DNA of 64,000 nt from a virus (IMGVR_UViG_3300035663_000004:1-64000); one strand, 5' to 3'. Positions 16,901 to 50,104 are shown, counted from the stretch's first letter. Translations and numbers: made by a program. Notes: a model not told the origin generated them from the letters alone.

Positions 16901-19900
16901 CGCCTCTTTTTTGTTCACTTCTTATTTTTGCCCTTATTTCGCTTTCAATCAATTCCTGCACTTGCGGGGCAAGGGACAAAAAGCGTCCGTCAAATCCTTC
17001 TACTGACTCAACAGCTTGTTCAATATCAAAGGTGCCATCCTCGTTTACAAAGTTGTCAAGGAAAGCGGAAACCTGATCGTCAAGGTGCTGTTTAAGTTCT
17101 GGCAGCGCATCTTCATACGCTACGATGCTGGGTTCTTTTTGCCTTTCTGCTTCAACCTGTTGTTCAATATCGGTTTCCTGTAAAATGCCCGCTTCCCGCG
17201 CCTGTCCGCGCTCCATTTCCATTTCGCGCATTGTTTCGCCGGATTGCTCTGCAATGCGCCTGCGGGCGTATTCTCCGGGGCCGTCCAAATTGTCCTCAAT
17301 AAAATCCCAAATCATTTGCTCCGCCTGAATCTCGTCAATGCCCCACTTGTCTGCAATATCGGTTGCCATTTGTTCAATGCCTTGTGCGCCCTTTTGGGTA
17401 TATTTCAGCATTGTCCCTTTTTGGTCTTTTCTCCAGCCTTTAGAGGCGAACTTTTTTGATCCACTTGGGTCAACTCTTTCTCCGCTCAAAAACTTTAAAG
17501 CAATATCGTCTTGAGGGCTTTCGGCATCTAACTGCGCCCAAAGCGGACGATCTTTGCTTACAATGCGTTGGCCTTGTATTGCTTGTGCATTAACGCCGCT
17601 CATAAAAGAGGTAATATCTTCGTTGGCGTCCGCGTTTGGCAGTTCCTGCGCAACTATTTGCCGGACTATTGGAAACTGCTCCTGACCAATAGTCCCCTTG
17701 CTTTGATCAATTACCGTTTGCGTCATTTCGTCTATGTACGATTCCTTTAGCGCCTCCCCCCGCTGGTTTGGTATCGTATCAGCGGCAGCCATTGCCTGCT
17801 GAACATCGCCCATTTTTGTTTCGGTGCTTGTAACTACTTCGGATAGCGATGCAGGAACGGCAACTCCGGCCTGTCTTGCCGCTTTAGTTGCGCGCTCAAC
17901 CTCAAAGGCTTCTACGGTTGGAGATTTGGGCGCACTTACCGTCATCTCCATAGCGAAAGGATTAAATTCCTCTTGTGCTGGGGGCTGCGTTGTAGGCTGC
18001 TCCGGGACTGTTTGGGGCGCTGTTGCGGTCGTGGTTGCAGTCGTTCCGGCTTCTACCGCTTCCGGCGTCTGCGCTGCCGGGATCGCGGGTTCTGCCTGCT
18101 GTAACTCCGGAACAGTACCAACTTCTGCTGGCGCTACCATTTCCGGCGTTGTTGCTGGTGTTACTTCCGGCGCTACTCCGGGCTGGGTAGGCATTTCAGC
18201 CGCCTGTATTGTTCCGGCCGCCTGTTCTTCGGCCGGAGCGGGTGCGCCTTCCAGCATCTTTGCGATGGCAGCGTCGGCGTCTTTGATCTGCTGTTTTATT
18301 TTCTCTGCCTGCGCCGGAATAACTTGTCCGGAATCAACGGCATTTTGCATATCGTCCCTGTAAGCCTGCAAGGTAATTATATCCGTTTTTTGGTTGTCGG
18401 ATAGATTGGGCGGCAGGTTTTTCCAGCGGATATTTAGCGCTTCAATCCTTGCCTGGTATTGCTGTGCTTCTTCGGGTGAAATGACCTTGCTGTCAACAAG
18501 ATTGGATAGTGCGCCTGCAAAGCGTTCCGGGGACGCTACGGCTGCTCCAAACGCCTGCTTTTGGTAGGTAGCAATGCCGCCACCGCCCAAAAAAGACATT
18601 GGAGCGGTAACAACGGTAGTCAAAAGGATAGTTTCCTTAATTTCGTCCGGCGTCATATCCGATTGCAGGCTCGATCCTGTCATTTGGTTAAACTCGGATG
18701 CGACAATTTTGTCCGAAAGGCCTGTTAAAATTTCTTCACCATTTTCTCCAATAATATCTTTTGCCGCTGGCCACAATCGCATAGCCGCTATTTGTCCGGG
18801 CGTCATTTTTCCAACAAGGGCGCGCGCCTCCATTTTGCCAAGACTTTTTGCGCTGGCGCTGGCGGCCATGGATAGCGGGCGCGTTTCAATTCCACCAACG
18901 CCTATTTCAAGTGCGCTCATAATCCCGGCAGCGGTAAGCGCATATTGCGCTGCGTCTGCCTGGCTCATATTCATATCACGAATAGCCTCTTTGTAGTAGT
19001 TATTGTGCGCCATTGCGAAACTGGCCGCTGTTGCTTTTGCCGCACTTCCTCCGGCCATGCCGCGCGTAATAGCCAACCTTGCAATCACATCGAATGCTTG
19101 GCTTCCGAGGTTGCGGTATCCGGTAAACTCCTCTTTTGCAAGCGCTGGCGCCTGTTCTGTCAAATATTGCAGCTCTTTTTCTGTTGGCTGCACTTCGGTA
19201 ATTCTGCCGTTTGCAAATCGCTCATATACCCGCTCCACTTCGCCTTGCGAACTTACTGCAACTTCATAGTCCTTAGCCCCCATTTTGATTTTTGCAATGT
19301 TCTCAAACAGGGGGCGGTTTTCTGCCGTTGGTTTTGGCATATAAACGTCTTGAGATTCTTGCATTTGGTCTCCAATAGAGCCAATAAAATAGCCCAAACC
19401 CCGTAACTTTTCAAAGGCATCTGACCCTATTGCGTCTTTTTCGGTTTCCGGTATCATTGCGGACAATGTGCGCGGAAGAGTAACAACCTCTACGGCAAGG
19501 TTTCCCGCTAATCTCTTTGCCCAATCTACTATTGGAACATTTGGAAGCGGTAAACCTTCTGCTGGACTAATAGGATCAAGTCCGGCATCAACCAAACTGG
19601 TGTTTAATTTCTTGAGCCGCTCGTTTTTAAAATACTCAGGATTGTTTTTTTCAAAATCAACGTATGCCTGTTGCGCTTTGCCGTATCCGGCCATTGCGCC
19701 CTGCAAGTTTTTGTAGGGTTCTGTTTCGGTAATTTTGGTTATTAATTCAAGGGCTGCTGTTCGCTGCTGCTCGTCTTTGGGGTTTGATACGGATTGTACC
19801 GCTCCTTCAAGTTGCGCTTCCCAGTCTTTGCCGAAAAGCAATGAAAGGTCGTTCTTTGCTACTTTGGCCTGCAAGTCCAAACGATTTCCATATAGTTGCA

Positions 19901-33180: not shown

Positions 33181-33212
33181 TTTGCTATCAATAATAATCG
33201 CCTGTATCTTTG
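33181..33212 (+). promoter_or_regulatory. Promoter of the chaperonin operon
   Basis: TTTG at 33181-33184, a 20-nt spacer and TATCTTTG at 33205-33212 form a consensus Bacteroidota promoter. It lies about 30 nt upstream of the first small gene and reads toward groEL. Confidence 0.8.
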
Positions 33213-33241
33213 CCACACATTTTTTAACTAAAAACAAAACT

Positions 33242-33352
33242 ATGCAGCAACAACAACGCTATCGAACTCCAATCCTGCCATGGATTCTACTGCTCACTTC
33301 CGCCTTGGCTTTGGCCTGTTTCTTTGTCGAGGCAAAATCGTTAACAATCTAA
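33242..33352 (+). CDS. Small single-span membrane protein
   Basis: A 36-aa frame, MQQQQRYRTPILPWILLLTS then ALALACFFVEAKSLTI, is one membrane helix after a polar start. It is the first frame after the promoter. No family can be named at this size. Confidence 0.5.
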   Translation: MQQQQRYRTPILPWILLLTSALALACFFVEAKSLTI

Positions 33353-33365
33353 AAAACAATCGACA

Positions 33366-33740
33366 ATGTTTACAGAAAAAGACCTTGTTGCTTTTGGAAA
33401 CTATGTTGTTTCCGACCAGTTCATTTTTGACTCCGCCTTTGCGTTCGGCTTCGGCCTGTCCAACATGGACAACATCACGGACGAAGACTTGTCGCTATTC
33501 CATTCCAACCATGACCGCCTGCTGGAGGCTGAAGTTGTCGGGTCATACACCAAAACTCAAATGGTGTCTTTTGCCCGCTATATGCGCAGCGATGAACGCG
33601 CTCAGCGGATCATGGATTTGATTACTGACCCGGAAACTTTTGAACTAAATGAGGACGAATTGATGAGCGGCTATCTGATTGCGATGCGACAGGTAAGTGA
33701 TGCCGACATTGAAAACTGGAAACTGTTGGCGTATGCTTAA
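33366..33740 (+). CDS. Hypothetical acidic protein
   Basis: The 124-aa protein starts MFTEKDLVAFGNYVVSDQF and has FGLSNMDNITDEDLSLFHSN followed by an acidic helical region. No family is recognised. Its stop overlaps the ATG of the membrane protein gene. It is the second gene in the chaperonin operon. Confidence 0.6.
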   Translation: MFTEKDLVAFGNYVVSDQFIFDSAFAFGFGLSNMDNITDEDLSLFHSNHDRLLEAEVVGSYTKTQMVSFARYMRSDERAQRIMDLITDPETFELNEDELMSGYLIAMRQVSDADIENWKLLAYA

Positions 33741-34086
33741 TTGGAAGTTTTTGGCCTTTCAGGCGGTTGCGTGTTTTTTTTACCACGTTTCGCTGGAAAT
33801 GTACGAATTTGACGCTCGGACGTTTGCCTGGATATTCATGTTGGTTTTCGATATGCTTTTATTTCCGCTCCCGCTGGTCGTTCTTTTGTCGTACATGGTT
33901 TTACAAGGTCAATCTATTTCGGGCTGGAGTCGTTTGGTTCACGCGCTTTATGCGGCCAACGTTTTGTCTGTACTATGGCGTTACCAATCTGAAGTATTAA
34001 ACCCTTTGGTTGTATTTGCTATCATTATTTTTTTAACAACTTATACAATTTTACTACGTTATGGGTTACTACCCTCAGTCAGATAA
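33733..34086 (+). CDS. Multi-span membrane protein overlapping groEL
   Basis: From ATG 33733 the 117-aa protein has about four membrane helices (FLAFQAVACFFYHVS, FAWIFMLVFDMLLFPLPLVV, LVHALYAANVLSVLW, LVVFAIIIFLTTYTILL). Its end overlaps the groEL start by 26 nt, so it is co-transcribed and maybe coupled. No family is recognised. Confidence 0.6.
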   Translation: MLNWKFLAFQAVACFFYHVSLEMYEFDARTFAWIFMLVFDMLLFPLPLVVLLSYMVLQGQSISGWSRLVHALYAANVLSVLWRYQSEVLNPLVVFAIIIFLTTYTILLRYGLLPSVR

Positions 34087-35653
34087 GACAAAGTTTTGTC
34101 AAGGCGTTGAAATGATGCTCCGTGTTGTTGGTTCAACGATGGGGCCGGGCGGGAATCCGGTTCTTGAATGCGCCGGGCTGGATGCTTCGTATCGTCGCCT
34201 CATCCGGGACGGCAAAGAAACGCTGAAACTGATTCAGCCGAACGACCCGGAAATGTATGAGCCTATTGCCCGAATGAAAGATGTCGCGGAGGCTGTCGTC
34301 CGGCGTGCTGGCGACGCCACAAGTACGGCTACGATCATTTTGGGCAGCGCTTTTCTTCATATCGAAAAGGCTATTAAGGATCACCCGGAACTGAACCGGA
34401 GCCGTATTGCCTTTCACGTTCGGCAGGCTTCAAAGATTGCTTTGGCTGAACTTGAAAAGCGCAAATTGCAGGTTACTACAAGTCAGGACTTGGAGAACGT
34501 TGCAACGATTTGCGCGGCCGGGGATCGTGAAATCGGGTCTGTTATCGGTTCGATGATTGAAAAGATTGGTGCGGACGGGACTGTCAAGGTTGAATACCAC
34601 GACAAACCGGGTGTTGAGGCGGTAATTGTTCCGGGCTACAAGTTCCAGGGCGGTGTGTACGGCATTGACCAATACAATGGTCGGCGCGGCCTCGAATTGG
34701 ACAACCCTCGTGTTGTCGTTGTCGGCGACGAAACGGGTTTGGTGGATTACAAGATGGATGTTGCCCCTATTTTGGCGGAAGCGCAAAAGTTTGGCGACAA
34801 CCGTCCGCTGGTGGTATTCGTGTTGTCTGCCGAAGGGTCTGCCCGCGCTACGTTGCTTCGTCCTTTTGTAAATGGTGCGGATGGCAACACGTTCCGTGCG
34901 CCTGTTTGGCTGGTTCGCATTGGTGCTGGCGGTGTAAATACCTGCGCGGACATTAGTGCTGTTACCGGGGCAACCTTGTTTGGCAAGTTGAACGGCAAAA
35001 TGATTTCCAAGATCAAGGATTCGGACTTTGGCGAAGCGGCTTCGATTGTTGCTACTACGGAATCCGTAACGATTGTTTCTTCGGACGATCAAAAGGCGTC
35101 TGTAAAGGATTATGTGAAGCGGTTGGAGGCTTCGATTGCCGAACATCCGGAGCTGGAGGAAAAAACGCGCGAACGCATTGCTGCGGTAACGGGGGGTGTT
35201 GGATTGATTCGCGTTCCGGCTTCTACGCAATCTTCCGGCTTCTACTATCAGGAGGTTGTTGACGACGCTTGGCGGGCTACGCGGGCGGCTATCAACGGCG
35301 GTGTTTTGCCTGGCGGCGGGGCTGCGTTATCAGGTGTTGCTGAAAATCTATTCTCGATTCATGCAACGGCTTGGTCGGAGGAGGCATTGGTGTACGATGC
35401 CATTGGTCATGCCTTTTACGGTGTATTGAAGACGGTGTGTAACAATGCCGGATTTGAAGTTGACTGGGGTAATATTGAATTTGGTTATGGTAAGACTTAC
35501 GACATTGTTTCCGGTGAAATGAATGTAAGCTCGCTTGAGTGCGGGGTAATTGATTCTGCTCCTGCGATTATGGCTGCTGTTGAATTGGCTTTGGCTGAAC
35601 TTGCTTTGTGGGTCAATTCGGAGTATTTGTTGGTTCAAAAATTTGAGCAATGA
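34061..35653 (+). CDS. groEL: Phage-encoded divergent GroEL chaperonin
   Basis: The 530-aa protein covers the full chaperonin fold. Conserved ATPase elements are visible: TMGPGGN at 26-32 (TLGPKGRN in E. coli), RDG with Asp50 (Asp52), AGDATSTAT at 83-91 with Asp85 (Asp87), Asp402 in VVDDAWRATRAA (Asp398) and VLPGGGAAL. Thus hydrolysis is probably intact, although the usual GDGTTT is altered to GDATST. The C-terminal GGM tail is missing; the protein ends VQKFEQ. It is coupled by an ATGA overlap to a groES-like gene. Phage GroELs are known in some large phages, usually without their own GroES, so the full set is unusual. Clients may be the giant virion proteins. Confidence 0.9.
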   Translation: MGYYPQSDKTKFCQGVEMMLRVVGSTMGPGGNPVLECAGLDASYRRLIRDGKETLKLIQPNDPEMYEPIARMKDVAEAVVRRAGDATSTATIILGSAFLHIEKAIKDHPELNRSRIAFHVRQASKIALAELEKRKLQVTTSQDLENVATICAAGDREIGSVIGSMIEKIGADGTVKVEYHDKPGVEAVIVPGYKFQGGVYGIDQYNGRRGLELDNPRVVVVGDETGLVDYKMDVAPILAEAQKFGDNRPLVVFVLSAEGSARATLLRPFVNGADGNTFRAPVWLVRIGAGGVNTCADISAVTGATLFGKLNGKMISKIKDSDFGEAASIVATTESVTIVSSDDQKASVKDYVKRLEASIAEHPELEEKTRERIAAVTGGVGLIRVPASTQSSGFYYQEVVDDAWRATRAAINGGVLPGGGAALSGVAENLFSIHATAWSEEALVYDAIGHAFYGVLKTVCNNAGFEVDWGNIEFGYGKTYDIVSGEMNVSSLECGVIDSAPAIMAAVELALAELALWVNSEYLLVQKFEQ

Positions 35654-35964
35654 TAATAGTAACTGAAAAGGAGTTCAAGGCCATGCAGCCCGGACTAAAC
35701 CGGGTATTGGTTATTCCGGACGTTGACGATCACGTTGACGCCGCTACGGGCATTCAGATTGCGCGTGACGAAAGCGAGCGCGAACAGGGTGTTATTGTGG
35801 CTTCTTCTGATGACGCCGTAAAGGCCGGGTATAAGGTAGGCGACCATATTGTGTATGCCAAGACAAGCATGGAGGTTTTTGAGTGCGAGGTTAATTTTGG
35901 TGACAGGGTTAATACGCTTCGGCTTCGTGTTGTTGACTGGCACGATATTGCTTTAAAATATTAG
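35650..35964 (+). CDS. groES: GroES-like co-chaperonin
   Basis: The 104-aa protein aligns with GroES: GLNRVLVIPDVDD near the start (DRVLVK), TGIQIARDE in the mobile-loop position (GGIVL), GVIVASSD (GxVVAVG) and YKVGDHIVYAK (VKVGDxVLF), ending LRVVDWHDIALKY like the last strand of the barrel. The hydrophobic loop tripeptide that docks into GroEL reads IQI. The start is coupled to groEL (ATGA). It should form the heptameric lid for the phage GroEL. Confidence 0.8.
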   Translation: MIIVTEKEFKAMQPGLNRVLVIPDVDDHVDAATGIQIARDESEREQGVIVASSDDAVKAGYKVGDHIVYAKTSMEVFECEVNFGDRVNTLRLRVVDWHDIALKY

Positions 35965-35968
35965 GCTT

Positions 35969-36262
35969 ATGACAAGATTGCAGCAAATTGGTGTTTTATT
36001 GATTGCCCTGCATATCGTGTTTAGTTTCACGGGTGTGTATCGGGCTGTTTCTGCTCCGAGTTACGATGTGTATGTTTACACGGGTAATCAGGGGTATTTG
36101 TTCAAGGACGTCCGGGTTGGTTTTTCCAACTTATGCGTTGTTCCGGACAGTTCCGGTGTTTTGGTTTTGTATTCCGGTGTTGCCGGGAAGGAAATATCTG
36201 TGTCGGGTGTAAAGAGTTGTGATATTGTTGCTGTACGAAAACCGCTTTTGTTCCCATGGTAG
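35969..36262 (+). CDS. Hypothetical protein with N-terminal membrane segment
   Basis: The 97-aa protein opens with LQQIGVLLIALHIVFSF, a membrane anchor or uncleaved signal. The rest is beta-rich with two Cys residues (FSNLCVVPDSSGVLVLYSGV, VSGVKSCDIV). It starts 4 nt after groES and overlaps the next gene by 7 nt. Function is unknown. Confidence 0.55.
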   Translation: MTRLQQIGVLLIALHIVFSFTGVYRAVSAPSYDVYVYTGNQGYLFKDVRVGFSNLCVVPDSSGVLVLYSGVAGKEISVSGVKSCDIVAVRKPLLFPW

Positions 36263-36957
36263 GAGATTTGTCTTTATATGTTGAAGTCGCTCCGGTTGGG
36301 GACGTTTCTTTTGACAAGGACACGGGGGTGTTGGTCAATGATTTTGTGGATGTCCATATTCTGCGTTCCCTGCTTGTCCGTGTTGTTTCCATACCGGGGC
36401 GGCTTCCGTATTATCGCCATGAGGTAGAGGCTGTTGGTTCGATGTACAAAAAGAGCAAGTCTCGGTTTGTGTCGGAATGGTCTCAACGGATGACGCACCG
36501 TAGTTGCGAGTACGATGTTCCTGTTGAGGTGTCTGTTGGGGACTTGGTTTTAATGCAGCACTTACCGAATTTGGAGCAGCCGGAAGGTGTGCGGTATGTT
36601 AGGTACGATCAGCTGGTTGCCCGGCTTATGAAGTTATCCGGGGGGTTGTATCCTTTGAATGGCCACCTGTTGTTGCGAATGCCGGAAGACGAAAAGGGGT
36701 ATATTGATCCTAAGTATAAGTGGCGAAATTCTTTGACGCGCGGTGAAGTGATTGCGCAAGGGTGTGCGGTAAGGGGGTACAAGCGTTGGCCTGGGTTTCG
36801 GGACAAAGTTTCTGAAAACTGGGTTGGCAGGACGGTTTATTTCCGGCCTTACAGCGCGGTTAGGATTGAGAATGATACGCACCGGACGATGGATTATTCT
36901 TCTCCGTGGCCATATTATCGAATTAGCAAGCCGCAAATCTTATCATGGACGGACTAA
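36256..36957 (+). CDS. Putative tandem (two-domain) GroES-like protein
   Basis: The 233-aa protein shows two successive segments with a GroES-like pattern. Domain 1 (about 5-124) has SLYVEVAPVGD, a TGVLV mobile-loop-like tripeptide at 23-27, LVRVVSIPG, and VEVSVGDLVLMQH ending in VRYVRYDQLVA. Domain 2 (about 132-230) has LNGHLLLRMPEDE, GYIDP, RGEVIAQG (GxVVAVG), NWVGRTVYFRPYSAVRIEN (VGDxVxFxxYxGxEV) and YYRISKPQIL (YLILRxxDIL). Two fused co-chaperonin domains are known in chloroplast Cpn20; a phage version would be new to me. Its location two genes after groES supports the call. Sequence divergence keeps confidence moderate. Confidence 0.5.
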   Translation: MVGDLSLYVEVAPVGDVSFDKDTGVLVNDFVDVHILRSLLVRVVSIPGRLPYYRHEVEAVGSMYKKSKSRFVSEWSQRMTHRSCEYDVPVEVSVGDLVLMQHLPNLEQPEGVRYVRYDQLVARLMKLSGGLYPLNGHLLLRMPEDEKGYIDPKYKWRNSLTRGEVIAQGCAVRGYKRWPGFRDKVSENWVGRTVYFRPYSAVRIENDTHRTMDYSSPWPYYRISKPQILSWTD

Positions 36958-37586
36958 CGGGTGTACTGCAATTTGACACGACAAAGATGCGGATTGATCC
37001 GCAGGCAAGCGGGATGCTTTGGGAACGGTATCCGGAACTTGCTATGCGGAAAAACCTTTGCAGTATTGATACGTTTACATTTAGTCAGTTAGATGAGGAG
37101 CCTGTTTCTTTGCAGGATTTGAATAAAACGATTATCTTTGTGGCGTATTTCTGCGATCCGGGCAGTCCGTTTTTTTCGGAGGTTGTTTTGGATCACCGCA
37201 TGAAGGTTTGTTTGGATGCGGCTGGAATTACGGGTAGGTTGAGGACGCTGGTTTTGTCGCGGCATTGGTGGGTTTCGAGGGTTATGACAGAATATTTGAA
37301 ATTAGTGCATAGCCATGAGTTTGAGTTGTGGTTGAGTTTGTCAATGGACTATGCGGAAAAAATGGCATATTTGCGGCTACCGCTTACATCTTTTGTTGAC
37401 AATATGGAAAGCGCAATGAATGCCCGCGATAAGGTACAGAAAAGCGCTCCGGCGCTGAAGGATGAAATCAAAAAGTTAGAGACAAAGTTGTTCCCGAATG
37501 CCTATGTAGTGGATGCGGCTGTGGAAACAATAACAGCGGACGGTATAGGGGGTTGGGCGGAATACTTTGCGATGGATAAAGAATGA
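36945..37586 (+). CDS. Hypothetical protein of the chaperonin operon
   Basis: The 213-aa protein overlaps the tandem-GroES gene by 13 nt. It has a mixed N-terminal region (LNKTIIFVAYFCDPGSPFFS, TGRLRTLVLSRHWWVSRVM) and a Lys/Glu-rich helical C-terminal part (RDKVQKSAPALKDEIKKLET). No family is recognised. It could be a virion protein or an accessory of the chaperone system. Confidence 0.55.
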   Translation: MDGLTGVLQFDTTKMRIDPQASGMLWERYPELAMRKNLCSIDTFTFSQLDEEPVSLQDLNKTIIFVAYFCDPGSPFFSEVVLDHRMKVCLDAAGITGRLRTLVLSRHWWVSRVMTEYLKLVHSHEFELWLSLSMDYAEKMAYLRLPLTSFVDNMESAMNARDKVQKSAPALKDEIKKLETKLFPNAYVVDAAVETITADGIGGWAEYFAMDKE

Positions 37587-37612
37587 ATTTTTTAAAAATA
37601 AAATCAAGTAGT

Positions 37613-38056
37613 ATGAAATTCAAAGCACTTCTTTTCTTTTTTGCCTTTTTTTGTGCGGCTTTTGTCTCCGCGCAATCAAACGCATCAAAAGTCGTTCCGT
37701 GGGTTCAAAACGGCGACTCTCTTTCCGAAAACACGACTCTGGCCTATGAGCTTGCCATTGGCGGAACAATTGATAAAACAAAACTGTGGAACTACTCAGT
37801 TATTGTTTTTGCCGATTCGATTTCCGGCGCCAACGCCGGGACGGTTCAACTTCAAATTTCCAACGATCCCGCCGGAACGGCCTCGCCTATTTGGTCTAAT
37901 TATGGCACGGCTGGAACTATTGACGGAACCGCAGATCAGTTTTTTAACTACGAAGGGACGCTCTATGCTCGCCGCCTCCGTGTTTTAATTACCTCTCCTG
38001 CCGGAACCCGAAAAACTGCTATTCGCCTGCGTGGGCTTTTCCGACAAGTTGAATAA
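37613..38056 (+). CDS. Secreted-type hypothetical protein
   Basis: ATG 37613 gives MKFKALLFFFAFFCAAFVSA, a textbook signal peptide with cleavage before or after AQ. The mature ~125 aa are beta-rich (WNYSVIVFADSISGANAGTV, QLQISNDPAG, LYARRLRVLITSPAG), a jelly-roll-like pattern seen in fibre or attachment proteins. It is the first of several exported products in this fibre region, and ends before a strong hairpin. Confidence 0.65.
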   Translation: MKFKALLFFFAFFCAAFVSAQSNASKVVPWVQNGDSLSENTTLAYELAIGGTIDKTKLWNYSVIVFADSISGANAGTVQLQISNDPAGTASPIWSNYGTAGTIDGTADQFFNYEGTLYARRLRVLITSPAGTRKTAIRLRGLFRQVE

Positions 38057-38080: not shown

Positions 38081-38111
38081 GGGCGCACGAAACGGAAGTT
38101 ATCGTGCGCCC
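38081..38111 (+). terminator. Strong 10-bp hairpin before the fibre genes
   Basis: GGGCGCACGA pairs perfectly with TCGTGCGCCC around an 11-nt loop, followed by ACCTTTAAG and the next ATG at 38122. The T tract is poor, so it may be an attenuator or mRNA-processing signal. Confidence 0.6.
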
Positions 38112-38121
38112 ACCTTTAAGA

Positions 38122-39369
38122 ATGAAAAAGTTATCTTTATTCATATTATTCTTAGGCTTTTTCTTCCGGTTGTTTAGTCAAGGGACTGTTTTGACAACGG
38201 AGGGCGGGAAGCCTGTTATGTTAAACCTCGACGAAATGCGCACGGTGCGCCCTGTTACGTCGGGGTCTTTGATTTTATACGGATCGGCATTGCGCGCTAT
38301 TTACGTTTCTGAAACGCCTGCGCAAATTGCAGGATCGGGGTGCGGTCAAATAGCGCTTGTAAATACGACCGACGTTGGCAGGAATACGATTGTTGGCATT
38401 GGCGTTCGCCATATTGACGCGATTCGGAAAACATCCGACGGCAAAGCGAGTATTGCAATGAATGCGACCAATATTCCGGCTATGAAAAGCGTGGAGGATT
38501 TTGAAGCGATTGTCTTGCGGATTGCGGTGTGTTCTACCGGCCCTGGAGGCAACGGGTCTTCTGCGGGCGGAGATCGGGACAGTATTGAAGCGATGGTTTA
38601 TGTTCCGACTACCGGGCGGCTTTCACTTATAAATGAATCCGGGGATAGCATTAGCGTAGTTATAAACAATCAAACGCTGTCTGTAACAGGAGATAGTTTA
38701 AGTATTAGTTTTGGCAATAAAGTAAAACTGCCGTCAAAAAGCCTTTTGGATTTGGCATCTGAATTGCCATATTATGTTAGCGATTCCGCGGCGCTGGCTG
38801 CTGGTCTTGCTCCAGGCGCGCCCTATTTGTTGGAGTGCAATAATGACTACAATTTACCTTCCGGGCTTTTCAAGGTTGTAAAAATTTGTGGGTATGACTG
38901 TTTTATTGTTTTACGTTTTTATACAAACGATGAGGAGGCTGCGTCTTCCGGGGTTCCTGTTGGCAGGGAATATGTTTTGGATGATGACAACGCTTTGGGG
39001 GTTCTTTACGGCTTCATTAAAGTTCTTACAAATGATACGCTAAGCACGGGCGGATTGATTTGCAATGACACGCTGCCTGTTTATGCGTCTGACGCTTTGG
39101 CTATATCCGGCGGCCTGGCTGTTGGAGATCAATATGAAACTTCTGACGAAAATACCTATGGCGCTCCTGCTGGAATTGGTCGTATGGTTTCGTCTTCAAA
39201 TACTTTGTCCGGCACAACTCAGGTTTGCTGTGACGAAAATGACAATTTGCCTTTTTTCAGTAACGATTCGGCTGCTATTTCCGCCGGATTGTTGGCCGGA
39301 GAAAAGTATTATCTTTTAAAATCGAATACATACGGATGGCCGTATGGAACAAAAAAGACTGTTCAATGA
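38122..39369 (+). CDS. Exported fibre-like protein with four internal repeats
   Basis: From ATG 38122 the 415-aa protein has a signal peptide, MKKLSLFILFLGFFFRLFSQ. The N-terminal half is beta-rich. From residue 215 on there are four ~50-residue repeats with the pattern LP.Y.sD..A...GL..G..Y....N.yG.P.G....V (about 215, 272, 316 and 376). Similar repeats occur in Bacteroidota phage structural proteins. Its stop overlaps the start of the giant fibre gene (ATGA), which suggests the two act together, perhaps as fibre and base or cap. Confidence 0.65.
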   Translation: MKKLSLFILFLGFFFRLFSQGTVLTTEGGKPVMLNLDEMRTVRPVTSGSLILYGSALRAIYVSETPAQIAGSGCGQIALVNTTDVGRNTIVGIGVRHIDAIRKTSDGKASIAMNATNIPAMKSVEDFEAIVLRIAVCSTGPGGNGSSAGGDRDSIEAMVYVPTTGRLSLINESGDSISVVINNQTLSVTGDSLSISFGNKVKLPSKSLLDLASELPYYVSDSAALAAGLAPGAPYLLECNNDYNLPSGLFKVVKICGYDCFIVLRFYTNDEEAASSGVPVGREYVLDDDNALGVLYGFIKVLTNDTLSTGGLICNDTLPVYASDALAISGGLAVGDQYETSDENTYGAPAGIGRMVSSSNTLSGTTQVCCDENDNLPFFSNDSAAISAGLLAGEKYYLLKSNTYGWPYGTKKTVQ

Positions 39370-42300
39370 ATCAAAAGTTTTTCCTTTCCGCCTTGTTTGT
39401 TTTTTCCTGCGGCATTGCGGGCGCGCAGGGTATCGTAAAGGGTTCCGGCATCATTTACAGCGATTCGATTCCTACGCATAGTGTAGATACGCTAAAAGAA
39501 GCGGAAATTGCTTTGGATGTCCGCACCGGGAATTACTATCAATGGAGCCGCGATTCGGTCAAGTGGGTGTTCTCCGGATTTAGGGTTGAGATCAAGCCCG
39601 GCGCCTGTTCTGCCCCAACGTACATTCCGGGGCGCAATCAGTCTTATTTCGTTTCCGACACTTGCGGAACATTTTATTTTTACAACGACACGCTTTGGAG
39701 GCAGGTTAAGGGGACGATTGCAGACGGAGATAAAGGAGATATAACGGTATCCGGAAACGGACTAAACTGGAATATTGACGCCGGAACGATTGGCGCTACC
39801 GAACTTGCGTCCACGTCTGTTGCTCCGGGAACGTACTCAAATGCTACGGTTACCGTTGACGCCGACGGTCGTATAACAAATGCCGTAAACGGGCCTACCG
39901 GCGCGCGCGGCATATATGATGGATCGGGAACTACCGGAGATTCTACGGTTGTTGCAAGTATCAAAAAGGAAATTCAGTTTAGGTCTGATTCTACGGATGC
40001 TTCATTTTTGGTGGACTTTACGCCGAATGATCTGTATGGAACCAACGCGGCTGTTCGCCCGGACTCTTTGAACTTCCTGTTTTTTAATTTAACGGGTTCA
40101 TCGCGTCTTGTTATTAAGTCGGACGGCATTTCCGCTATTACAAATACGGCAAACCCGTCTTTGCGGCTTACCGGGAACCCTGCGATATACAGCGCGGACT
40201 ACTCTCCGTTTACGGATCGTGAATTGCCGGACTACGCGGCGGTAAAAAAAATCGTTGTAGATTCTGTACAGGTTATAACTGTAACAAACGACACGGCGTA
40301 CTTGAGTCGGTCTGGAGGAATTATTCCATTGAAAAAATACGCTCAGGTTATTGATACGTTTTCAAGGCTTAATGATACGCTTTTTATATCTTTGAGCAAT
40401 GACAACGCCCCTGCTGTTAGTGCCATTATTGACGGTAGCTCAACAAATGAAATTCAGGACTTATCGTTATCCGGTCAAACGCTTTCTTTGAGCAATGACC
40501 CAACAACGGTGACGCTTCCGGTTATTGGAGTATCCGGCGGAACAGGAATTACAACAAGTTCGTCGGGCGGCACGGTAACGGTGACAAACGCCGCGCCGGA
40601 TCAAACCGTCTCAATTAGCGGATCGGGTATTACAACCGTTACGGGAACTTATCCGGTCTTTACCGTCACCAGCACGGAAAACGACGGATCAACTTCAAAT
40701 GAAGGTAGCCTTACAGTAGGAGCCGGAATAGCAACTACAAGCGTAATATCCTCAAATACAAGCGGAAGCACAAACGTCACCATTGAAGCCGGGTCTAATA
40801 TAACGTTAAGTGAATCAGGAAATACAATTACGATTGCATCTACGGCTGCCGGGGTAACGGATGGAGATAAAGACGATATTACGGTTTCCGGCTCCGGCGC
40901 AAACTGGAATATTCGAAATGACTCGGTAACAAGCCCTAAAATATTGGACGGAACTATTGCGCTGGCAGACATGGGCGCTAACAGCGTGGACTCAACAAAG
41001 GTGGGCGACAAAACGCTTAGTCTTAGTGATCTCAACGGGGCATGGGGGGTACAAAATGGATTCGTGTTGAAATGGAATGGGTCTAACTGGCGACCCGGGG
41101 CGGATAATACCGGGGCGGACGGGAACGGCATTTATGGCGGCGACGGAGATATACCAACCGGCACCGACGCGACATTGCCGCTCAATAGTTTTTTTAGGTT
41201 TGAATGGCCAAGCGGAAATACAGCCTTTATAATGGATGATTTTGGCGACACGGTTTATTTGGCCGACCCTTCGCTGGCTTCTTCTGTTTTGGTTTCCGCT
41301 TCAAAGGTCGGCCTTCGCTCAACAGGGAATATCGAACTTTGGGGTGGCACGGGCGGCGCTAAACTTCGGATGTTAGAACCGACGGGATCGGGAACTAACT
41401 ATACTGAAATTCAGGTCGGCGCACAGTCAACGGACATAACTTATACTTTGCCAACAACAACCGGATCGAATGGTCAATACCTGCAATTTACGACTGGCGG
41501 CCAGTTGCAATGGTCAACGGTGGCGGCCGGGGTAACGGATGGAGATAAAGACGATATTACGGTTTCCGGCTCCGGCGCAAACTGGAACATACGCAACGAT
41601 TCAGTAACAAGCCCAAAGATATTAGACGGGACGATTGCGCTGGTGGACATGGGCGCAAATAGTGTTGACTCAACAAAAATAGGCGACAAAACTGTAAGCC
41701 TTAGCGATCTTAATGGTGCGTGGGGCGCAAATGCAGGATCGGTGCTAAAATGGGACGGGAACAACTGGAGGCCGGGAACAGACAATAATACCGACGCGCA
41801 AACGCTATCTATTAATAGTACAACGGTAGGCAGTAGCGAGCGGTTTGCTGTTTCGATTTCCAGCGGGAATACGGTTAATTTTGACGTACCACAAGGGACG
41901 GTTACCTCGGTTGGTATCACTCAACCCGCTGCCGGAATAACAGTAACTAATAGCCCTGTAACAACAAGCGGAAATATAAGCCTTGCGCTTGCAAATGACC
42001 TTGGCGCGGTTGAAGGGCTTACCACGAACGGTATTGCGGTGCGGACTGGTGACAACACATGGACAACAAGAAGTATAGCGGGCGCGGCGGACCCTTCATC
42101 CACCGCATTACCTACTATAAACGATTTTAATGGCGTCAATGGTAACCCCACAATATCAATAAGCACATCAACAAGCACCACAAAACTAACGGCGCTTGTT
42201 GCTACAACCGCTAACATTACATTAAGCGGGACGCAAACGATTGATGGTGTTGCGCTAAGTGCAGACAACAGGGTGCTGGTTAAAAACCAAAATACAGCGA

Positions 42301-45300
42301 GCCAAAATGGCTTATATGTAGTTAGGACAACAGCGTGGGTCAGAGCAACAGACCTTGATGCAAATACCGAATTAAACAATGGAGTTTTGGTTTACATTAG
42401 TCGCGGGACAGCAAATGGAGGCAAATACTTTAGGCTCGCAACGTCAACAGAACCGCCATTAACCATAACCACAAGCGCTTTAAGCTTTAGCGAAACCCTT
42501 GGCGCTGGCGTGACGGACGGCGACAAGGATGATATAACGGTATCAAATTCAGGCGCAAACTGGAATATTAGAAACGATAGTGTTACGACTCCAAAAATCC
42601 TAAACGGAACAATCCTGTTTGAAGACATTGGCCAAAACAGCGCATCGCCCGGACAGGTTATCAAGTGGAACGGGACAGCTTGGGCGGCGGCGGCCGACAA
42701 TACAGGCGGATCGGGTTCGACTGATTTAAGCTGGACGGGCGCTTCTTCGCCTTATACGCTTAATAGTTCTTCTGGCACGGATGTGGATTTCGCGCAAGGC
42801 GGCGGCATAACGCTTTCAACAAGCGGGGCAACCTTGACTATTGCGGCTACGGATCAGTCCACGACAAACGAATTACAGACACTTTCTACGGCTACAAATA
42901 CGGTAACGCTAAGCAATAGCGGCGGCAGTTTTACGATTGCAGGCGGCGGCATAAACGCTGCTTCAACATCGGGTTCTACTATTACAATAACCGGAACAGA
43001 GGTGGATGGCTCAACGACAAATGAGATACAAGACCTTTCGCTTTCAGGCCAAACGCTTTCTTTGAGCAGCGACGCTACAACGGTGACGCTTCCGGTTATC
43101 GCGGTATCGGCTGGAACTGGAATATCCACAAGTTCTTCCGGCGGCACGGTGACGGTGACTAATTCGGCGCCCGACCAAACAGTAGGAATAACCGGAACCG
43201 GAATAACAGTAGTTTCTAATTACCCAAACTTTACTCTTACGGCGGCCGATCAGTCAGCCTCAAACGAAGTGCTAACAATTTCCGATGGCACAAACACCGA
43301 GGCTCTGGGCGGTCAAACATTAACAGTTGCAGGCGGTGGTATCAATACGGCATCCTATAATGCTACAACCAATACGCTTACGATTAGCGGCACCGAGAAT
43401 GACGGATCAACCTCAAACGAAGGTATTTTAGGTGTAGGCGCTGGATCGGGAACAACCGCTACAATTACAACAAACACAACAACCGGGAATGCTGTAACTA
43501 TCGCGGGCGGTGGTATTGTGGCTATTACAAAAACAACAGGTACGAACGGCGGCACTATTACTATTACCGGCACCGAGGCGGATGGCTCAACTACGAATGA
43601 ATTGCAAACGCTTTCCACGGCAACAAATACCGTTACACTCAGTAACAGCGGCGGAAGTTTTACAATCTCTGGCGCTGGCATTAATACGGCATCTACTTCC
43701 GGCTCAACTATAACTATAACAGGAACCGAGAACGACGGCTCAACTACAAATGAACTTCAGACGTTAAGTACGGCGACAAACACCGTTACGCTTTCTAATT
43801 CAGGCGGCAGCTTCACAATAGCAGGTGGTGGTATCAATACAGTATCCACAAGCGGGTCAACTATTACTGTTACTGGAACTGAAAACGACGGCTCAACCAC
43901 AAACGAACTGCAAACAATCGCCAACACATCCGACGCAACCAGTCATACGGTGACGCTGTCTAATTCGGGCGGGTCGGTGCAGTTGATTCAAGGCGCTGGT
44001 ATTGATCTTACAACAGGCGGGAACAGCGGCGCGGGAACGGTTACGATTGCGGCCACAAATAGCGGCACGGTTACATCGGTAGGCATCACCGCACCGGCCG
44101 CCGGCATAACCGTAAGCAATAGCCCTATCACGTCGAGCGGGAATATTACACTTGCGCTTGCGGATGATTTAGCGGCGGTAGAGGGATTAACGAGTATAGG
44201 TGTTGCTGTTAGAACCAATAATGTGCCGCCAACATGGACAACAAGGTCTTTAACGGTAGCTAATCCTATTTCTATACAAAACGCTACGGGCGCAAGCGAT
44301 AATCCGTTTATATATTTAAACAATGGAGATTACGGCGATATAAGCATTGCAAACTCTAATTTGCCCCTCGGGCTTCGTGGCGATGTTTGGACGATTGATG
44401 CCAACGTAGTAGATTCAACAAACGTCGGCAACAATACGTTGAGCGTTGACGATATTAACGGCGGGTGGGGCGTTCAAACCGGGTCTGTATTGAAATGGAA
44501 CGGGACAAACTGGCGTCCGGGAACAGACGAAACAGGCGGCGGCGGCGGCGGCGTGACCGACGGCGACAAAGGCGACATAACGGTATCCGCTTCCGGCGCT
44601 ACGTGGACGATTGATAACACCGTTGTGAATTACGCAAAAATCCAAAACATATCCAACACAAACCGCATTTTAGGCCGGGCAACGGCCGGGGCTGGATCAG
44701 TCGAAGAGATAACAGTTGGTGGCGATTTGACCCAAAGCGGGTCAAATTTTACGGTTGCTAACGACGCCATCACTTTTGCGAAAATGCAGAACAGCGCAGC
44801 CGCCGGGCTTTCGGTAGTTGGGCGAAGCGCAAACAGCGCCGGGGATTTCGCCGAAATAAACGCGGGCACAGACGGCTTTGTGTTGCGCAGGTCGGGTACT
44901 ACTTTGGGCTTTGGGACGGTGGCGACGGCGGGGATTGCGGACGCGGCGGTGACTTACGCAAAAATCCAAAACGTAGCAGGTAACAGCGTGTTGGCTCGTA
45001 CTGCCAGCGGATCGGGCACCCTTAGCGAGGTGGCGCTTTCGGCTTCTAATTTGTTAGGTCGCGGTAGTACGGGTAATGTGAGCGCGATTACGTTGGGTAG
45101 TAATTTGTCTATGTCGGGCACAGCCCTTAACACGACCGGGCATCCAACAATCACGGGAACGCCAACGACAAACGCGATACCGAAATGGACATCAAGTTCG
45201 GCGCTGGGTTCGACGATTGTCCAAGAGTCAATTTCTGGCGCGGACACGATCATTCAGATCGTTGGCCGGGACGCTTTGCGGTTGCCGCTGGGGACTACGG

Positions 45301-46223
45301 CGGAGCGGCCGGGAACGCCTACTATTGGTATGACGCGCTATAATACTACTAATGGGGCGTTTGAGTATTATGACGCGGACGCGTGGGAAACGCCGCTGAT
45401 TTCGGCTACGGGTACGGGACTTGGTACGGCGGGAAATGTGTTTTTTGCGGATGCGAATGGGCGGGCAAGCGGATCAACAAACCTTTTTTGGGACGCGACT
45501 AATAGCAGGCTGGGTGTTGGGACAAGTTCGCCGCAAAGTCAGTTTCACTTTGTAACGAACGTTTCAGGCGACCCATCAAACTTCGTTGTAGAGCGATACA
45601 CAGCAAACGCAAACATTATCCAGCGCCGCGCGAACGGAACTATTGCGTCGCCAACAGCCTGCCTTAATGGAGATGTATTGGGCGCAAACGCTTTTCGTGG
45701 CCATAACGGGACGGCGTTCGCATCCCTTTCATCTGTAGTCATGCTTGCTGTTGCTACGGAAAACTGGACAACCTCTGCAAATGGCGCGAGGTTTACAATT
45801 AACACGATTCCTAACGGGGCAACTTCAGGAAGTGCACGATTTACAATTAACCACAACGGCAACGTAAATATTGGTAGCGGCACAAGTCCTGAAAACAGGT
45901 TGCAAATTGAAGGCACCCTCGGTCGCAACGCGCCCGTATCAACTGACGCCACAGCATACGTCATGACAAATGACGTATCTACCACGTGGCTAATTTGTGA
46001 CGAAACAGCAACAACAACGATCACCCTTCCGGCGGCATCAAGTTGGAGCGGCCGCGAACTCACAATCAAAAATATCACCGCTTTTGCGGTGAACTCAAAC
46101 GCGTCTAACGTTTTGCCTATTGGCAGCAATACGGCGGGAACGGCGATACTTTCAGCAACGGCTGGATCGTGGGCGCTGCTGGTATCAAATGGCACGAACT
46201 GGGTTATAATGCAACGCGGATAA
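39366..46223 (+). CDS. Giant repeat-rich tail-fibre-like protein with signal peptide
   Basis: From ATG 39366 the product is 2285 aa, starting MNQKFFLSALFVFSCGIAGA with cleavage near AQ. Most of the length consists of recurrent beta repeats: a DGSTTNELQTLSTATNTVTL unit in several copies, GTVTSVGITAPAAGITV units, and GVTDGDKDDITVSGSGANWN modules followed by VLKWNG..WRPG. The C-terminal ~300 aa have LGVGTSSPQ, GNVNIGSG and a long Thr/Ala beta region ending GTNWVIMQRG, typical of the distal part of long phage fibres. No peptidase S74 chaperone domain is evident, so trimerisation must rely on another factor. Host-surface binding is the likely role. Confidence 0.75.
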   Translation: MNQKFFLSALFVFSCGIAGAQGIVKGSGIIYSDSIPTHSVDTLKEAEIALDVRTGNYYQWSRDSVKWVFSGFRVEIKPGACSAPTYIPGRNQSYFVSDTCGTFYFYNDTLWRQVKGTIADGDKGDITVSGNGLNWNIDAGTIGATELASTSVAPGTYSNATVTVDADGRITNAVNGPTGARGIYDGSGTTGDSTVVASIKKEIQFRSDSTDASFLVDFTPNDLYGTNAAVRPDSLNFLFFNLTGSSRLVIKSDGISAITNTANPSLRLTGNPAIYSADYSPFTDRELPDYAAVKKIVVDSVQVITVTNDTAYLSRSGGIIPLKKYAQVIDTFSRLNDTLFISLSNDNAPAVSAIIDGSSTNEIQDLSLSGQTLSLSNDPTTVTLPVIGVSGGTGITTSSSGGTVTVTNAAPDQTVSISGSGITTVTGTYPVFTVTSTENDGSTSNEGSLTVGAGIATTSVISSNTSGSTNVTIEAGSNITLSESGNTITIASTAAGVTDGDKDDITVSGSGANWNIRNDSVTSPKILDGTIALADMGANSVDSTKVGDKTLSLSDLNGAWGVQNGFVLKWNGSNWRPGADNTGADGNGIYGGDGDIPTGTDATLPLNSFFRFEWPSGNTAFIMDDFGDTVYLADPSLASSVLVSASKVGLRSTGNIELWGGTGGAKLRMLEPTGSGTNYTEIQVGAQSTDITYTLPTTTGSNGQYLQFTTGGQLQWSTVAAGVTDGDKDDITVSGSGANWNIRNDSVTSPKILDGTIALVDMGANSVDSTKIGDKTVSLSDLNGAWGANAGSVLKWDGNNWRPGTDNNTDAQTLSINSTTVGSSERFAVSISSGNTVNFDVPQGTVTSVGITQPAAGITVTNSPVTTSGNISLALANDLGAVEGLTTNGIAVRTGDNTWTTRSIAGAADPSSTALPTINDFNGVNGNPTISISTSTSTTKLTALVATTANITLSGTQTIDGVALSADNRVLVKNQNTASQNGLYVVRTTAWVRATDLDANTELNNGVLVYISRGTANGGKYFRLATSTEPPLTITTSALSFSETLGAGVTDGDKDDITVSNSGANWNIRNDSVTTPKILNGTILFEDIGQNSASPGQVIKWNGTAWAAAADNTGGSGSTDLSWTGASSPYTLNSSSGTDVDFAQGGGITLSTSGATLTIAATDQSTTNELQTLSTATNTVTLSNSGGSFTIAGGGINAASTSGSTITITGTEVDGSTTNEIQDLSLSGQTLSLSSDATTVTLPVIAVSAGTGISTSSSGGTVTVTNSAPDQTVGITGTGITVVSNYPNFTLTAADQSASNEVLTISDGTNTEALGGQTLTVAGGGINTASYNATTNTLTISGTENDGSTSNEGILGVGAGSGTTATITTNTTTGNAVTIAGGGIVAITKTTGTNGGTITITGTEADGSTTNELQTLSTATNTVTLSNSGGSFTISGAGINTASTSGSTITITGTENDGSTTNELQTLSTATNTVTLSNSGGSFTIAGGGINTVSTSGSTITVTGTENDGSTTNELQTIANTSDATSHTVTLSNSGGSVQLIQGAGIDLTTGGNSGAGTVTIAATNSGTVTSVGITAPAAGITVSNSPITSSGNITLALADDLAAVEGLTSIGVAVRTNNVPPTWTTRSLTVANPISIQNATGASDNPFIYLNNGDYGDISIANSNLPLGLRGDVWTIDANVVDSTNVGNNTLSVDDINGGWGVQTGSVLKWNGTNWRPGTDETGGGGGGVTDGDKGDITVSASGATWTIDNTVVNYAKIQNISNTNRILGRATAGAGSVEEITVGGDLTQSGSNFTVANDAITFAKMQNSAAAGLSVVGRSANSAGDFAEINAGTDGFVLRRSGTTLGFGTVATAGIADAAVTYAKIQNVAGNSVLARTASGSGTLSEVALSASNLLGRGSTGNVSAITLGSNLSMSGTALNTTGHPTITGTPTTNAIPKWTSSSALGSTIVQESISGADTIIQIVGRDALRLPLGTTAERPGTPTIGMTRYNTTNGAFEYYDADAWETPLISATGTGLGTAGNVFFADANGRASGSTNLFWDATNSRLGVGTSSPQSQFHFVTNVSGDPSNFVVERYTANANIIQRRANGTIASPTACLNGDVLGANAFRGHNGTAFASLSSVVMLAVATENWTTSANGARFTINTIPNGATSGSARFTINHNGNVNIGSGTSPENRLQIEGTLGRNAPVSTDATAYVMTNDVSTTWLICDETATTTITLPAASSWSGRELTIKNITAFAVNSNASNVLPIGSNTAGTAILSATAGSWALLVSNGTNWVIMQRG
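40848..40909 (+). repeat. 62-bp exact direct repeat within the fibre gene, copy 1
   Basis: The stretch starting GCCGGGGTAACGGATGGAGA and ending AAACTGGAA is repeated without change 678 bp downstream. It encodes the start of a GVTDGDKDDITV module. 678 is a multiple of three, so recombination between the copies would delete 226 residues in frame. Confidence 0.9.
41526..41587 (+). repeat. 62-bp exact direct repeat within the fibre gene, copy 2
   Basis: Second copy of the 62-bp repeat, identical to 40848-40909. Outside this block the two modules differ at many synonymous sites. Confidence 0.9.
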
Positions 46224-46238
46224 AACAAACATTAAAAT

Positions 46239-46871
46239 ATGAAACACATCCTTTTCCTTCTCCTTTTCCCGGCTGCCTTGTTGGCGCAAGATCAACCGGA
46301 CACAACCGCCGTCACCTATGAAAACCGGGGCGGCATCTTTTACACCGTCACGAAAACAACGTTTCAATCCGGGCGGATCGTGACCGAAGAAACGCCGCTT
46401 GGCGCGGACACAGCAGGCGTGGTAAACGCCATTATCGGGCCGGTATTCACAGCCACAACCGACGCCGCAAACAAGGCTATACAGGTGGCACGGCTTAACC
46501 GGGTGCGGCAACAGGTGGTGGCGGCCAACGCGGCGCTCAACGGGCTTGTTGGACAGGATTATTTTAGCGTGGTACAGAACGCCGTTGGCCAGGAATTTTT
46601 GCCGGATTCATTACAAAGTATCCCGGCTACTATGCGCGTTGACGGCGGCTCTCCCATCACCGCATCAATCCGGCGAAACGCCGCCGGGCGCTTGGTATTT
46701 AGGCAGGGAACGCAGAACTTTACGCTGGATATCGTTAGCCGTAATTGGATACGCTTGCGGCGCTATCAGGGTACGGAAACGCTGGCGACAGACGCCGTGA
46801 TTGTTGATCTGTTCAAAGAAACTGAAGGGCGCTGGATTTCTCTTGATCTTAAATATAATCTGCGAAAATAA
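46239..46871 (+). CDS. Exported protein of the fibre cluster
   Basis: The 210-aa protein starts MKHILFLLLFPAALLAQDQP, a signal peptide cleaved near LLA/QD. The mature part has a helical middle (NKAIQVARLNRVRQQVVAAN) and a beta-rich C-terminal region (RLVFRQGTQNFTLDIVSRNW). It is encoded 15 nt after the giant fibre and its stop overlaps the next start, so it may be a fibre connector or assembly factor. No family recognised. Confidence 0.6.
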   Translation: MKHILFLLLFPAALLAQDQPDTTAVTYENRGGIFYTVTKTTFQSGRIVTEETPLGADTAGVVNAIIGPVFTATTDAANKAIQVARLNRVRQQVVAANAALNGLVGQDYFSVVQNAVGQEFLPDSLQSIPATMRVDGGSPITASIRRNAAGRLVFRQGTQNFTLDIVSRNWIRLRRYQGTETLATDAVIVDLFKETEGRWISLDLKYNLRK

Positions 46872-48679: not shown

Positions 48680-50104
48680 ATGCCCGCATCATATCTTCAT
48701 GGGGTAGAAACCATTGAAATCCAAAAAGGCGCGCGCCCGGTGCAAGTCGTGAAATCGGCCGTTATCGGTCTGGTCGGCATCGCTCCGAAAGGCACGCCCA
48801 ATTCGCTTACCCTGGTGCTGAATGCGCAGGAAGCCGCGACGAAGTTCGGCAGCGAACTGCCGGGGTTTTCAATTCCGCAGGCCCTGTCCGCAATCTATGC
48901 ACAGGGTGCGGGAACGGTTCTGGTAGTGAACGTTTTCGATCCGGCGACCATGACGACCGCCGTAACAAACGAAACGAAAACAATTACGAACGGCAAGGCG
49001 AAAACCACGAATGCCCCAACAAACACGGTGGTCGTGACGAACAACGCAGGCACAACGACCTACGTCGCTGGCACGGACTACTCGATTGACGACTTCGGAA
49101 ACCTGACGGTACTGAACTTCACCTCCATTGCCGAGAGTAGCGCAATTAAGTTCGCCTATTCGCACCTGAACGCATCCGCGATCACGCCGTCAGTAATTAT
49201 CGGCAGCGTGAACGGTTCCGGCGTTCGCACCGGGTTCAAGTCCCTTGCGCTGGCTTACTCGACGTTCGGATACACCCCGAAGGTGCTTATTGCGCCGAAC
49301 TACTCGCAGGAATCCACCGGAGCCGTTGCTGCTGAAATGATTGCCCAGGCCGAAGCGCTGAAGGCGGTCGCAATTATTGACACGCCGAACAACACGACGG
49401 TGGCAACGGCACTCACAGGCCGCGGGCCGTCGGGTACGCTGGCAGGCTGGAAAACCAGCAGCAAGCGCGCCGTATTGGCATACCCTAACGTGAAGGTGTA
49501 CGACGCCGCTACTGACGCCGTGCAGGTTCGCCCGTATTCCGGGTACCTCGCTGGTGTTATCGCCGCAACCGACCTGAATGAGGGTTACCATATTAGCCCG
49601 TCGAATCACGAAATTCAGGGCGTAGTCGGGCCGGAGCGTACGATCACGGCTGCAATTAACGACGCATCCACGGAGGCCAACGCGCTGAACGAAGTCGGCA
49701 TCGTGACGCAGTTCAACTCGTTTGGCACCGGCCTGCGCGTCTGGGGCAACCGCTCCGCATCGTGGCCTACCAACACAGCGCCGGATAACTTCATCCCGGT
49801 TCGCCGGACGGCTGATATCCTGCACGAATCCGTAGAATACGCGATGCTGCCGTTCATTGATAAGCCGCTGAATCAGGCTACCATTGACGCGATCCGCGAA
49901 TCCGTGAACGCGTTCATCCGTACGCTGATTCAGCGGGGCGCGCTGATTGACGGGAAATGTATCTACAACAAGGACAAGAACCCGGCAACCGAACTGGCAC
50001 TGGGACACGTCACGTTCGATATCGAGTTCCTGCCGCCGACGCCCGCCGAACGGATCACGTTCGAGAGCTTCATTGATATTAACCTTTTCCGCTCACTCGC
50101 ATAA
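48680..50104 (+). CDS. Contractile tail sheath protein (P2 FI-like)
   Basis: The 474-aa protein starts MPASYLHGVETIEIQKGARP and continues VQVVKSAVIGLVGIAPKG, the typical N-terminus of P2-type sheath proteins. A central inserted beta domain (TYVAGTDYSIDDFGNLTVLN) is followed by the conserved C-terminal region VWGNRSASWPT, FIPVRRTADILHESVEYAML and a final FDIEFLPPTPAERITF. Sheath subunits surround the tube and contract to drive it through the envelope. It opens the tail operon and is followed at 13 nt by the tube gene. Confidence 0.9.
   Translation: MPASYLHGVETIEIQKGARPVQVVKSAVIGLVGIAPKGTPNSLTLVLNAQEAATKFGSELPGFSIPQALSAIYAQGAGTVLVVNVFDPATMTTAVTNETKTITNGKAKTTNAPTNTVVVTNNAGTTTYVAGTDYSIDDFGNLTVLNFTSIAESSAIKFAYSHLNASAITPSVIIGSVNGSGVRTGFKSLALAYSTFGYTPKVLIAPNYSQESTGAVAAEMIAQAEALKAVAIIDTPNNTTVATALTGRGPSGTLAGWKTSSKRAVLAYPNVKVYDAATDAVQVRPYSGYLAGVIAATDLNEGYHISPSNHEIQGVVGPERTITAAINDASTEANALNEVGIVTQFNSFGTGLRVWGNRSASWPTNTAPDNFIPVRRTADILHESVEYAMLPFIDKPLNQATIDAIRESVNAFIRTLIQRGALIDGKCIYNKDKNPATELALGHVTFDIEFLPPTPAERITFESFIDINLFRSLA

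Follow-up and report, generated by a model that had tools for sequence, protein, structure and literature searches.

Analysis of a 64,000-nucleotide stretch of DNA from a virus (IMGVR_UViG_3300035663_000004:1-64000, here called the window) revealed a phage operon at positions 33181 to 38056 of the plus strand that encodes a divergent phage GroEL, a GroES, and an additional Cpn10-like protein of larger size. The locus is real and maintained by selection. A sibling contig (32 kb, 94 to 97% identity) has the identical gene order in the operon, and pairwise ratios of nonsynonymous to synonymous substitutions (dN/dS) between the window and this contig are 0.10 for the GroEL gene, 0.045 for the GroES gene, and 0.057 for the larger Cpn10-like gene, indicating that all three are maintained by purifying selection. 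The locus lies inside phage DNA and not in host DNA, in a genome that also holds tail, head, and packaging genes. We consider it fairly probable that these genes provide the phage with a group I chaperonin of its own that functions independently of the host, perhaps with a mixed lid resembling that of Cpn10 and Cpn20.

A divergent GroEL and two Cpn10-type proteins

The GroEL gene (34061 to 35653) encodes 530 amino acids and matches Pfam Cpn60_TCP1 above the curated cut-off (E = 2.7e-21), PHROG 5725, "chaperonin groEL" (E = 9.5e-56, residues 11 to 526), and GroEL in the PDB (E = 2.8e-38, residues 7 to 523). At the sequence level, homology to group I chaperonins spans the equatorial, intermediate, and apical domains. 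The counterparts of T30, G32, D52, D87, T89, D398, and D495 of Escherichia coli GroEL are all present, D495 as D498 of the phage protein. The three ATPase residues listed as conserved in the initial annotation, Asp50, Asp85, and Asp402, correspond to D52, D87, and D398 and are indeed invariant. The same annotation correctly described an altered GDGTTT motif and the lack of a GGM tail: the phage loop reads GDATST, with the aspartate and the first and third threonines retained (changes G88A and T90S), and the C terminus ends in LLVQKFEQ.

The apical domain is hard to align in the region that carries the changes Y199V, S201G, Y203D, F204Q, L234A, and L259R; here, L237 is retained and V263/V264 are still hydrophobic (L and V). 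The salt-bridge pair R197/E386 is replaced by G and Q. Retention of the ATP site together with replacement of the apical binding residues fits a GroEL that departed from the host GroES and co-evolved with a lid of its own. The extent of this divergence, which spared the ATPase but reshaped the apical rim, suggests that the chaperonin is orthogonal.

Apart from the sibling, phage and bacterial matches covering most of the length reach at most about 29% identity to the phage GroEL. The Bacteroidota GroELs sampled share 25 to 28%, so the gene is no recent host copy. Capture of a host housekeeping groESL operon was also considered and is disfavored by this low identity and by the reversed gene order. 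A phylogeny, which had been proposed as a check on host origin, gave no firm placement. FastTree put the GroEL on an extreme, saturated branch inside a clade of 76 sequences that are all from phages, but in a mixture-model approximately unbiased (AU) test, joining it to cellular GroEL of Bacteroidota was not rejected (P = 0.73).

The GroES gene (35650 to 35964) was predicted to be coupled to the GroEL gene by an ATGA overlap, and this holds: its start codon (ATG, 35650) overlaps with the stop codon of GroEL. The product of 104 amino acids matches Pfam Cpn10 with E = 9e-4 and 19.7 bits, 1.4 bits below the cut-off of 21.1. The larger Cpn10-like gene (36256 to 36957) encodes 233 amino acids and yielded no significant match in Pfam, PHROG, PDB sequences, or phage genomes; therefore, a dedicated profile was built from 51 phage GroES proteins, with the window and its sibling left out. 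Whole-domain alignments to this profile were scored under six parameter sets against 755 real open reading frames (ORFs) of like length and 300 shuffled sequences. The 104-amino-acid GroES outscored 755 of 755 ORFs and 300 of 300 shuffles in all six settings. In the putative mobile loop, where a hydrophobic G-I-x-L-like motif is expected, GIQI aligns to GIVL. By domain homology, the protein belongs to Cpn10.

The C-terminal half of the 233-amino-acid protein gave an equally clear result, as none of the 755 ORFs and none of the 300 shuffles scored as well with any parameter set, and the alignment spans the whole Cpn10 domain. This half thus contains a Cpn10 domain as judged by the profile (residues ~125 to 233). 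For the N-terminal half, z values were 2.4 to 3.1, and between 0 and 15 of the 755 ORFs scored as well, depending on the parameters. This level of about 1% resembles that of the N-terminal halves of some known large phage Cpn10s, and a second Cpn10 domain is plausible here. The claim of a third GroES-like protein at this locus therefore stands for the C-terminal half and is suggestive for the N-terminal half. An AlphaFold2 model of the C-terminal domain reached a predicted local distance difference test (pLDDT) score of 68.6, rising to about 90 in the strands. The 30 top-ranked PDB structures for this model are all Cpn10/GroES, T4 gp31, or 7ekq Cpn10/Cpn20-type co-chaperonin chains.

Many phages encode a two-domain Cpn10 of about 195 amino acids, and direct homology of the 233-amino-acid protein to this family was tried and rejected. 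The full-length comparisons by hmmsearch and hhalign and a BLAST comparison with the member from phage elemo were all nonsignificant. An attractive match made by eye was accordingly given no weight, and a MAFFT alignment of the two misplaced the N terminus. Hence, the protein is not assigned to the family, although it possibly has the same kind of architecture.

Chaperonin sets in other phages

GroEL homologs had initially been described as known from a few large phages, usually without a GroES of their own. This does not hold, as GroEL genes were counted in 193 or more phage records and in no fewer than 582 stretches of IMG/VR. Among the 80 nearest IMG/VR loci, some of which are truncated by contig ends, GroES adjoins GroEL in 44 (directly upstream in 33 and directly downstream in 11) and is not adjacent in 36. 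A set with two co-chaperonin genes is also less unusual than first described: a second Cpn10 of about 195 amino acids accompanies 9 of the 11 loci with the order GroEL-then-GroES, as in the window, compared with 0 of the 33 with the opposite order (Fisher P of about 8e-8, uncorrected for kinship), and the elemo and Calle phages carry all three genes. This larger Cpn10 is encoded in at least 595 IMG/VR stretches.

Pairs or triples have already been annotated or reported in phages immuto, Calle, elemo, and Panino. A 2017 paper described GroEL in Flavobacteriaceae phages (PMC5332604), a 2024 paper described GroEL plus GroES in phage Panino (PMC11590407), and Cpn10 is a core gene of the Pervagoviridae, listed beside structural genes (PMC8776804). 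Chaperonin sets are thus common in viruses of Bacteroidota. New in the window are the divergence of the GroEL, its largely replaced apical residues, and the position of a large Cpn10 gene inside the GroEL operon.

A close likeness is seen in Elemovirus (Flavobacterium phages vB_FspP_elemoA to -F), annotated with GroEL, GroES, and a "chaperonin cpn10" of about 180 amino acids. Here too, a coupled GroES gene follows GroEL, a second, larger Cpn10 is present, and the nucleotide loop deviates (GDSTTC). In contrast to the window, the elemo genome is smaller (about 60 kb), its GroEL is only ~21% identical to the window GroEL, and the large Cpn10 gene lies 5 to 6 kb from GroEL, before the terminase. 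In Panino, it also stands directly before the terminase, away from GroEL. Callevirus/Pervagoviridae (Cellulophaga phage Calle and relatives) likewise combines GroEL with a small Cpn10 and has, elsewhere, a Cpn10 of 194 amino acids, both halves of which match the GroES profile. However, its GroEL is ~23% identical, the small Cpn10 gene lies two genes ahead of GroEL, and the large one is found among the structural genes, where it precedes the portal gene by two. Two weaker similarities were seen in crAss-like phages: a short distance ahead of the terminase gene, both cr108_1 (L005:8857-9333, 16.1 bits) and phi14:2 (L008:7767-8153, 5.6 bits, not significant) have an ORF that lacks annotation and weakly resembles Cpn10.

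In Flavobacterium phage immuto and Bacteroides phage DAC16, GroES also adjoins GroEL, but it comes first and scores clearly as Cpn10, and no second Cpn10 was found within the ~6 kb examined. DAC16 gene 261 (L007:5676-5936) is annotated as hypothetical but matches Pfam Cpn10 clearly (E = 1.6e-21); it directly precedes the GroEL gene 262, which is likewise annotated as hypothetical.

The structurally studied phage chaperonins, EL gp146, OBP gp246, and AR9 gp228, are divergent GroEL-like proteins as well. They are lid-free and need no co-chaperonin (PMC7185714, PMC9598537), whereas the window encodes one or two; given its coupled GroES gene, the window GroEL does not fall into this class. A phage set with a GroES and a larger co-chaperonin contrasts with these models. 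Such sets occur in many Bacteroidota phages and are culturable in the elemo and Calle viruses, so it becomes testable what purpose a folding cage of its own serves for a phage, and for what reason two lids are required.

Proposed lids and client of the phage chaperonin

In the scheme that we infer, the phage GroEL would form a heptameric double ring running an ATP-driven cycle. The 104-amino-acid GroES would cap its apical rim as a heptameric lid, and the 233-amino-acid protein would very likely bind there as a lid, too. Both co-chaperonins may even form one mixed lid, as do Cpn10 and the two-domain Cpn20 in chloroplasts (PMC4242682, PMC5780408). The chloroplast system, with its Cpn60, also combines one GroES-sized and one double-length co-chaperonin; it differs in being organellar and multi-subunit, and for the phage proteins the resemblance in a mixed lid is hypothetical. 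More speculative, and rather unlikely in our estimation, is a lid ring of GroES-sized and two-domain Cpn10s that arose independently of chloroplasts, is orthogonal to host GroEL/GroES, and could extend to several hundred uncultured phages that have the second Cpn10.

The chaperonin would fold one or a few phage proteins, presumably late in infection. Head proteins are the commonest kind of client in lambda, T4, and related phages, and the GroEL cage holds about 60 kDa. The initial annotation had named a giant fiber of 2,285 amino acids and a protein of 3,142 amino acids as candidate clients. Both are too big for such a cage: the fiber ORF has 2,295 amino acids from its start at 39336 (~250 kDa; the shorter length is counted from an inner ATG). 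Because of its size and of the Sec-type signals that it shares with its neighbors, the giant fiber was rejected as a client. A head protein is the likeliest kind, and the candidate is the fused head protease/major head protein of 653 amino acids.

Several points weigh against a chaperonin with two lids. The alignment underlying the model of the C-terminal domain contained GroES sequences, so that the model is not independent and supports the assignment without proving it. A full-length model of the 233-amino-acid protein, computed from a two-sequence alignment, was unusable (pLDDT 36.6), its N-terminal half is suggestive of Cpn10 at the level given above, and the whole-length profile test against the ~195-amino-acid two-domain family was not significant (z = 0.64). 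Phage chaperonins such as EL, OBP, and AR9 function without any co-chaperonin (PMC7185714, PMC9598537). Finally, since the large Cpn10 genes of elemo and Panino stand before the terminase and apart from GroEL, these proteins may serve head assembly instead.

In the most probable alternative, GroEL and GroES form a working chaperonin while the 233-amino-acid protein is no lid of GroEL, its GroES fold having been reused, e.g., in a factor for the assembly of heads or for packaging. Besides elemo and Panino, the weakly Cpn10-like ORFs of cr108_1 and phi14:2 near the terminase, the listing of the Pervagoviridae core Cpn10 beside structural genes (PMC8776804), and the barely recognizable N-terminal domain of the protein agree with this. 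However, the gene in the window lies within the GroEL operon and far from the terminase (at ~78 to 80 kb of the record), and the large Cpn10 goes with the GroEL-then-GroES arrangement in the 44 loci where GroES adjoins GroEL. We therefore regard reuse of the fold as somewhat unlikely and retain the two-lid chaperonin as our working model.

That the phage GroES-like proteins serve the host GroEL, with the phage GroEL acting separately and without a lid like EL or AR9, appears improbable. T4 gp31 and RB49 CocO do act on host GroEL, lid-free phage chaperonins exist (PMC9598537, PMC7185714), and the phage GroEL differs at the apical residues that bind GroES. Co-evolution with a lid of its own would account for these changes no less well, though. 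In addition, translation of the phage GroES gene is coupled to that of the phage GroEL gene, and such gene pairs are common across phages. Least of all do we expect the GroES likeness of the 233-amino-acid protein to be a chance resemblance of an unrelated protein in the operon: while the custom profile alignment was the sole significant test among the searches, it covers the whole Cpn10 domain, no control scored as well as the C-terminal half, and the best structural matches are all of the Cpn10 type.

Operon layout and phage genome

The operon is preceded by a candidate Bacteroidota-type promoter, TTTG-N20-TATCTTTG (33181 to 33212, plus strand), which matches the consensus exactly. The 64-kb window contains 3 such matches versus 1.15 expected, so the argument rests on the position and not on the count. 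Scans for sigma-70 promoters and terminators gave scores not above those of shuffled sequences. All genes of the operon are on the plus strand. A leading ORF of 124 amino acids (33366 to 33740) is followed by a hydrophobic one of 129 amino acids (33697 to 34086) that overlaps the start of GroEL. Behind GroES lies an ORF of 97 amino acids with an N-terminal hydrophobic segment (35969 to 36262, dN/dS 0.31), and behind the larger Cpn10-like gene an ORF of 213 amino acids (36945 to 37586) that is strongly conserved in the sibling (dN/dS 0.017). An ATGA-coupled gene for a protein of 157 amino acids with a Sec-type signal (37583 to 38056) is the last of the coupled run. Through 38056, every later gene start overlaps or almost abuts the preceding gene end. 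The operon described initially is supported by translational coupling, and its promoter is a candidate, as the motif count is not significant by itself.

Four successive genes of the fiber region (37583 to 38056, 38104 to 39369, 39336 to 46223, and 46239 to 46871) start with a Sec-type hydrophobic signal, with ends reading SAQ, FSQ, AGAQ, and LLAQ, respectively, which is odd for virion fibers assembled in the cytoplasm.

The virus record comprises 87,523 bases, of which the window is the first part. Window genes include those for tail sheath, tape measure, baseplate, endolysin, and RecT; the remaining 23.5 kb contains primase, terminase, portal, and the fused head protein. The phage is contractile-tailed and uncultured. 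Its putative host phylum, Bacteroidota, is suggested by two indications, the promoter motif and the company of GroEL phages. Among isolates, the nearest tail sheaths are those of phages of Klebsiella, Escherichia, and Pseudomonas, and a relative of the tail sheath was found in 1 of 148 Bacteroidota genomes sampled. Beyond the sibling contig, no close relatives were found in the viral contigs and bacterial genomes searched. GroEL was not found in contigs with related tail sheaths, a weak negative as these contigs are fragments.

The tail sheath (48680 to 50104) is 45 to 49% identical to proteins in Klebsiella, Escherichia, Pseudomonas, and Salmonella phage records and 100% identical in one IMG/VR contig (L177). 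Head maturation protease and major head protein form a single ORF (L004:1721-3679, record positions 81721 to 83679) that matches PHROG 4523 with E = 2.8e-190. The 3,142-amino-acid protein (10986 to 20414) carries LPD23, one of the large polyvalent protein domains (E = 2.5e-14), and part of the protein matches a virion structural PHROG. The phage also carries a homolog of phosphoadenosine phosphosulfate reductase (L003:5431-6276, E = 3.9e-54).

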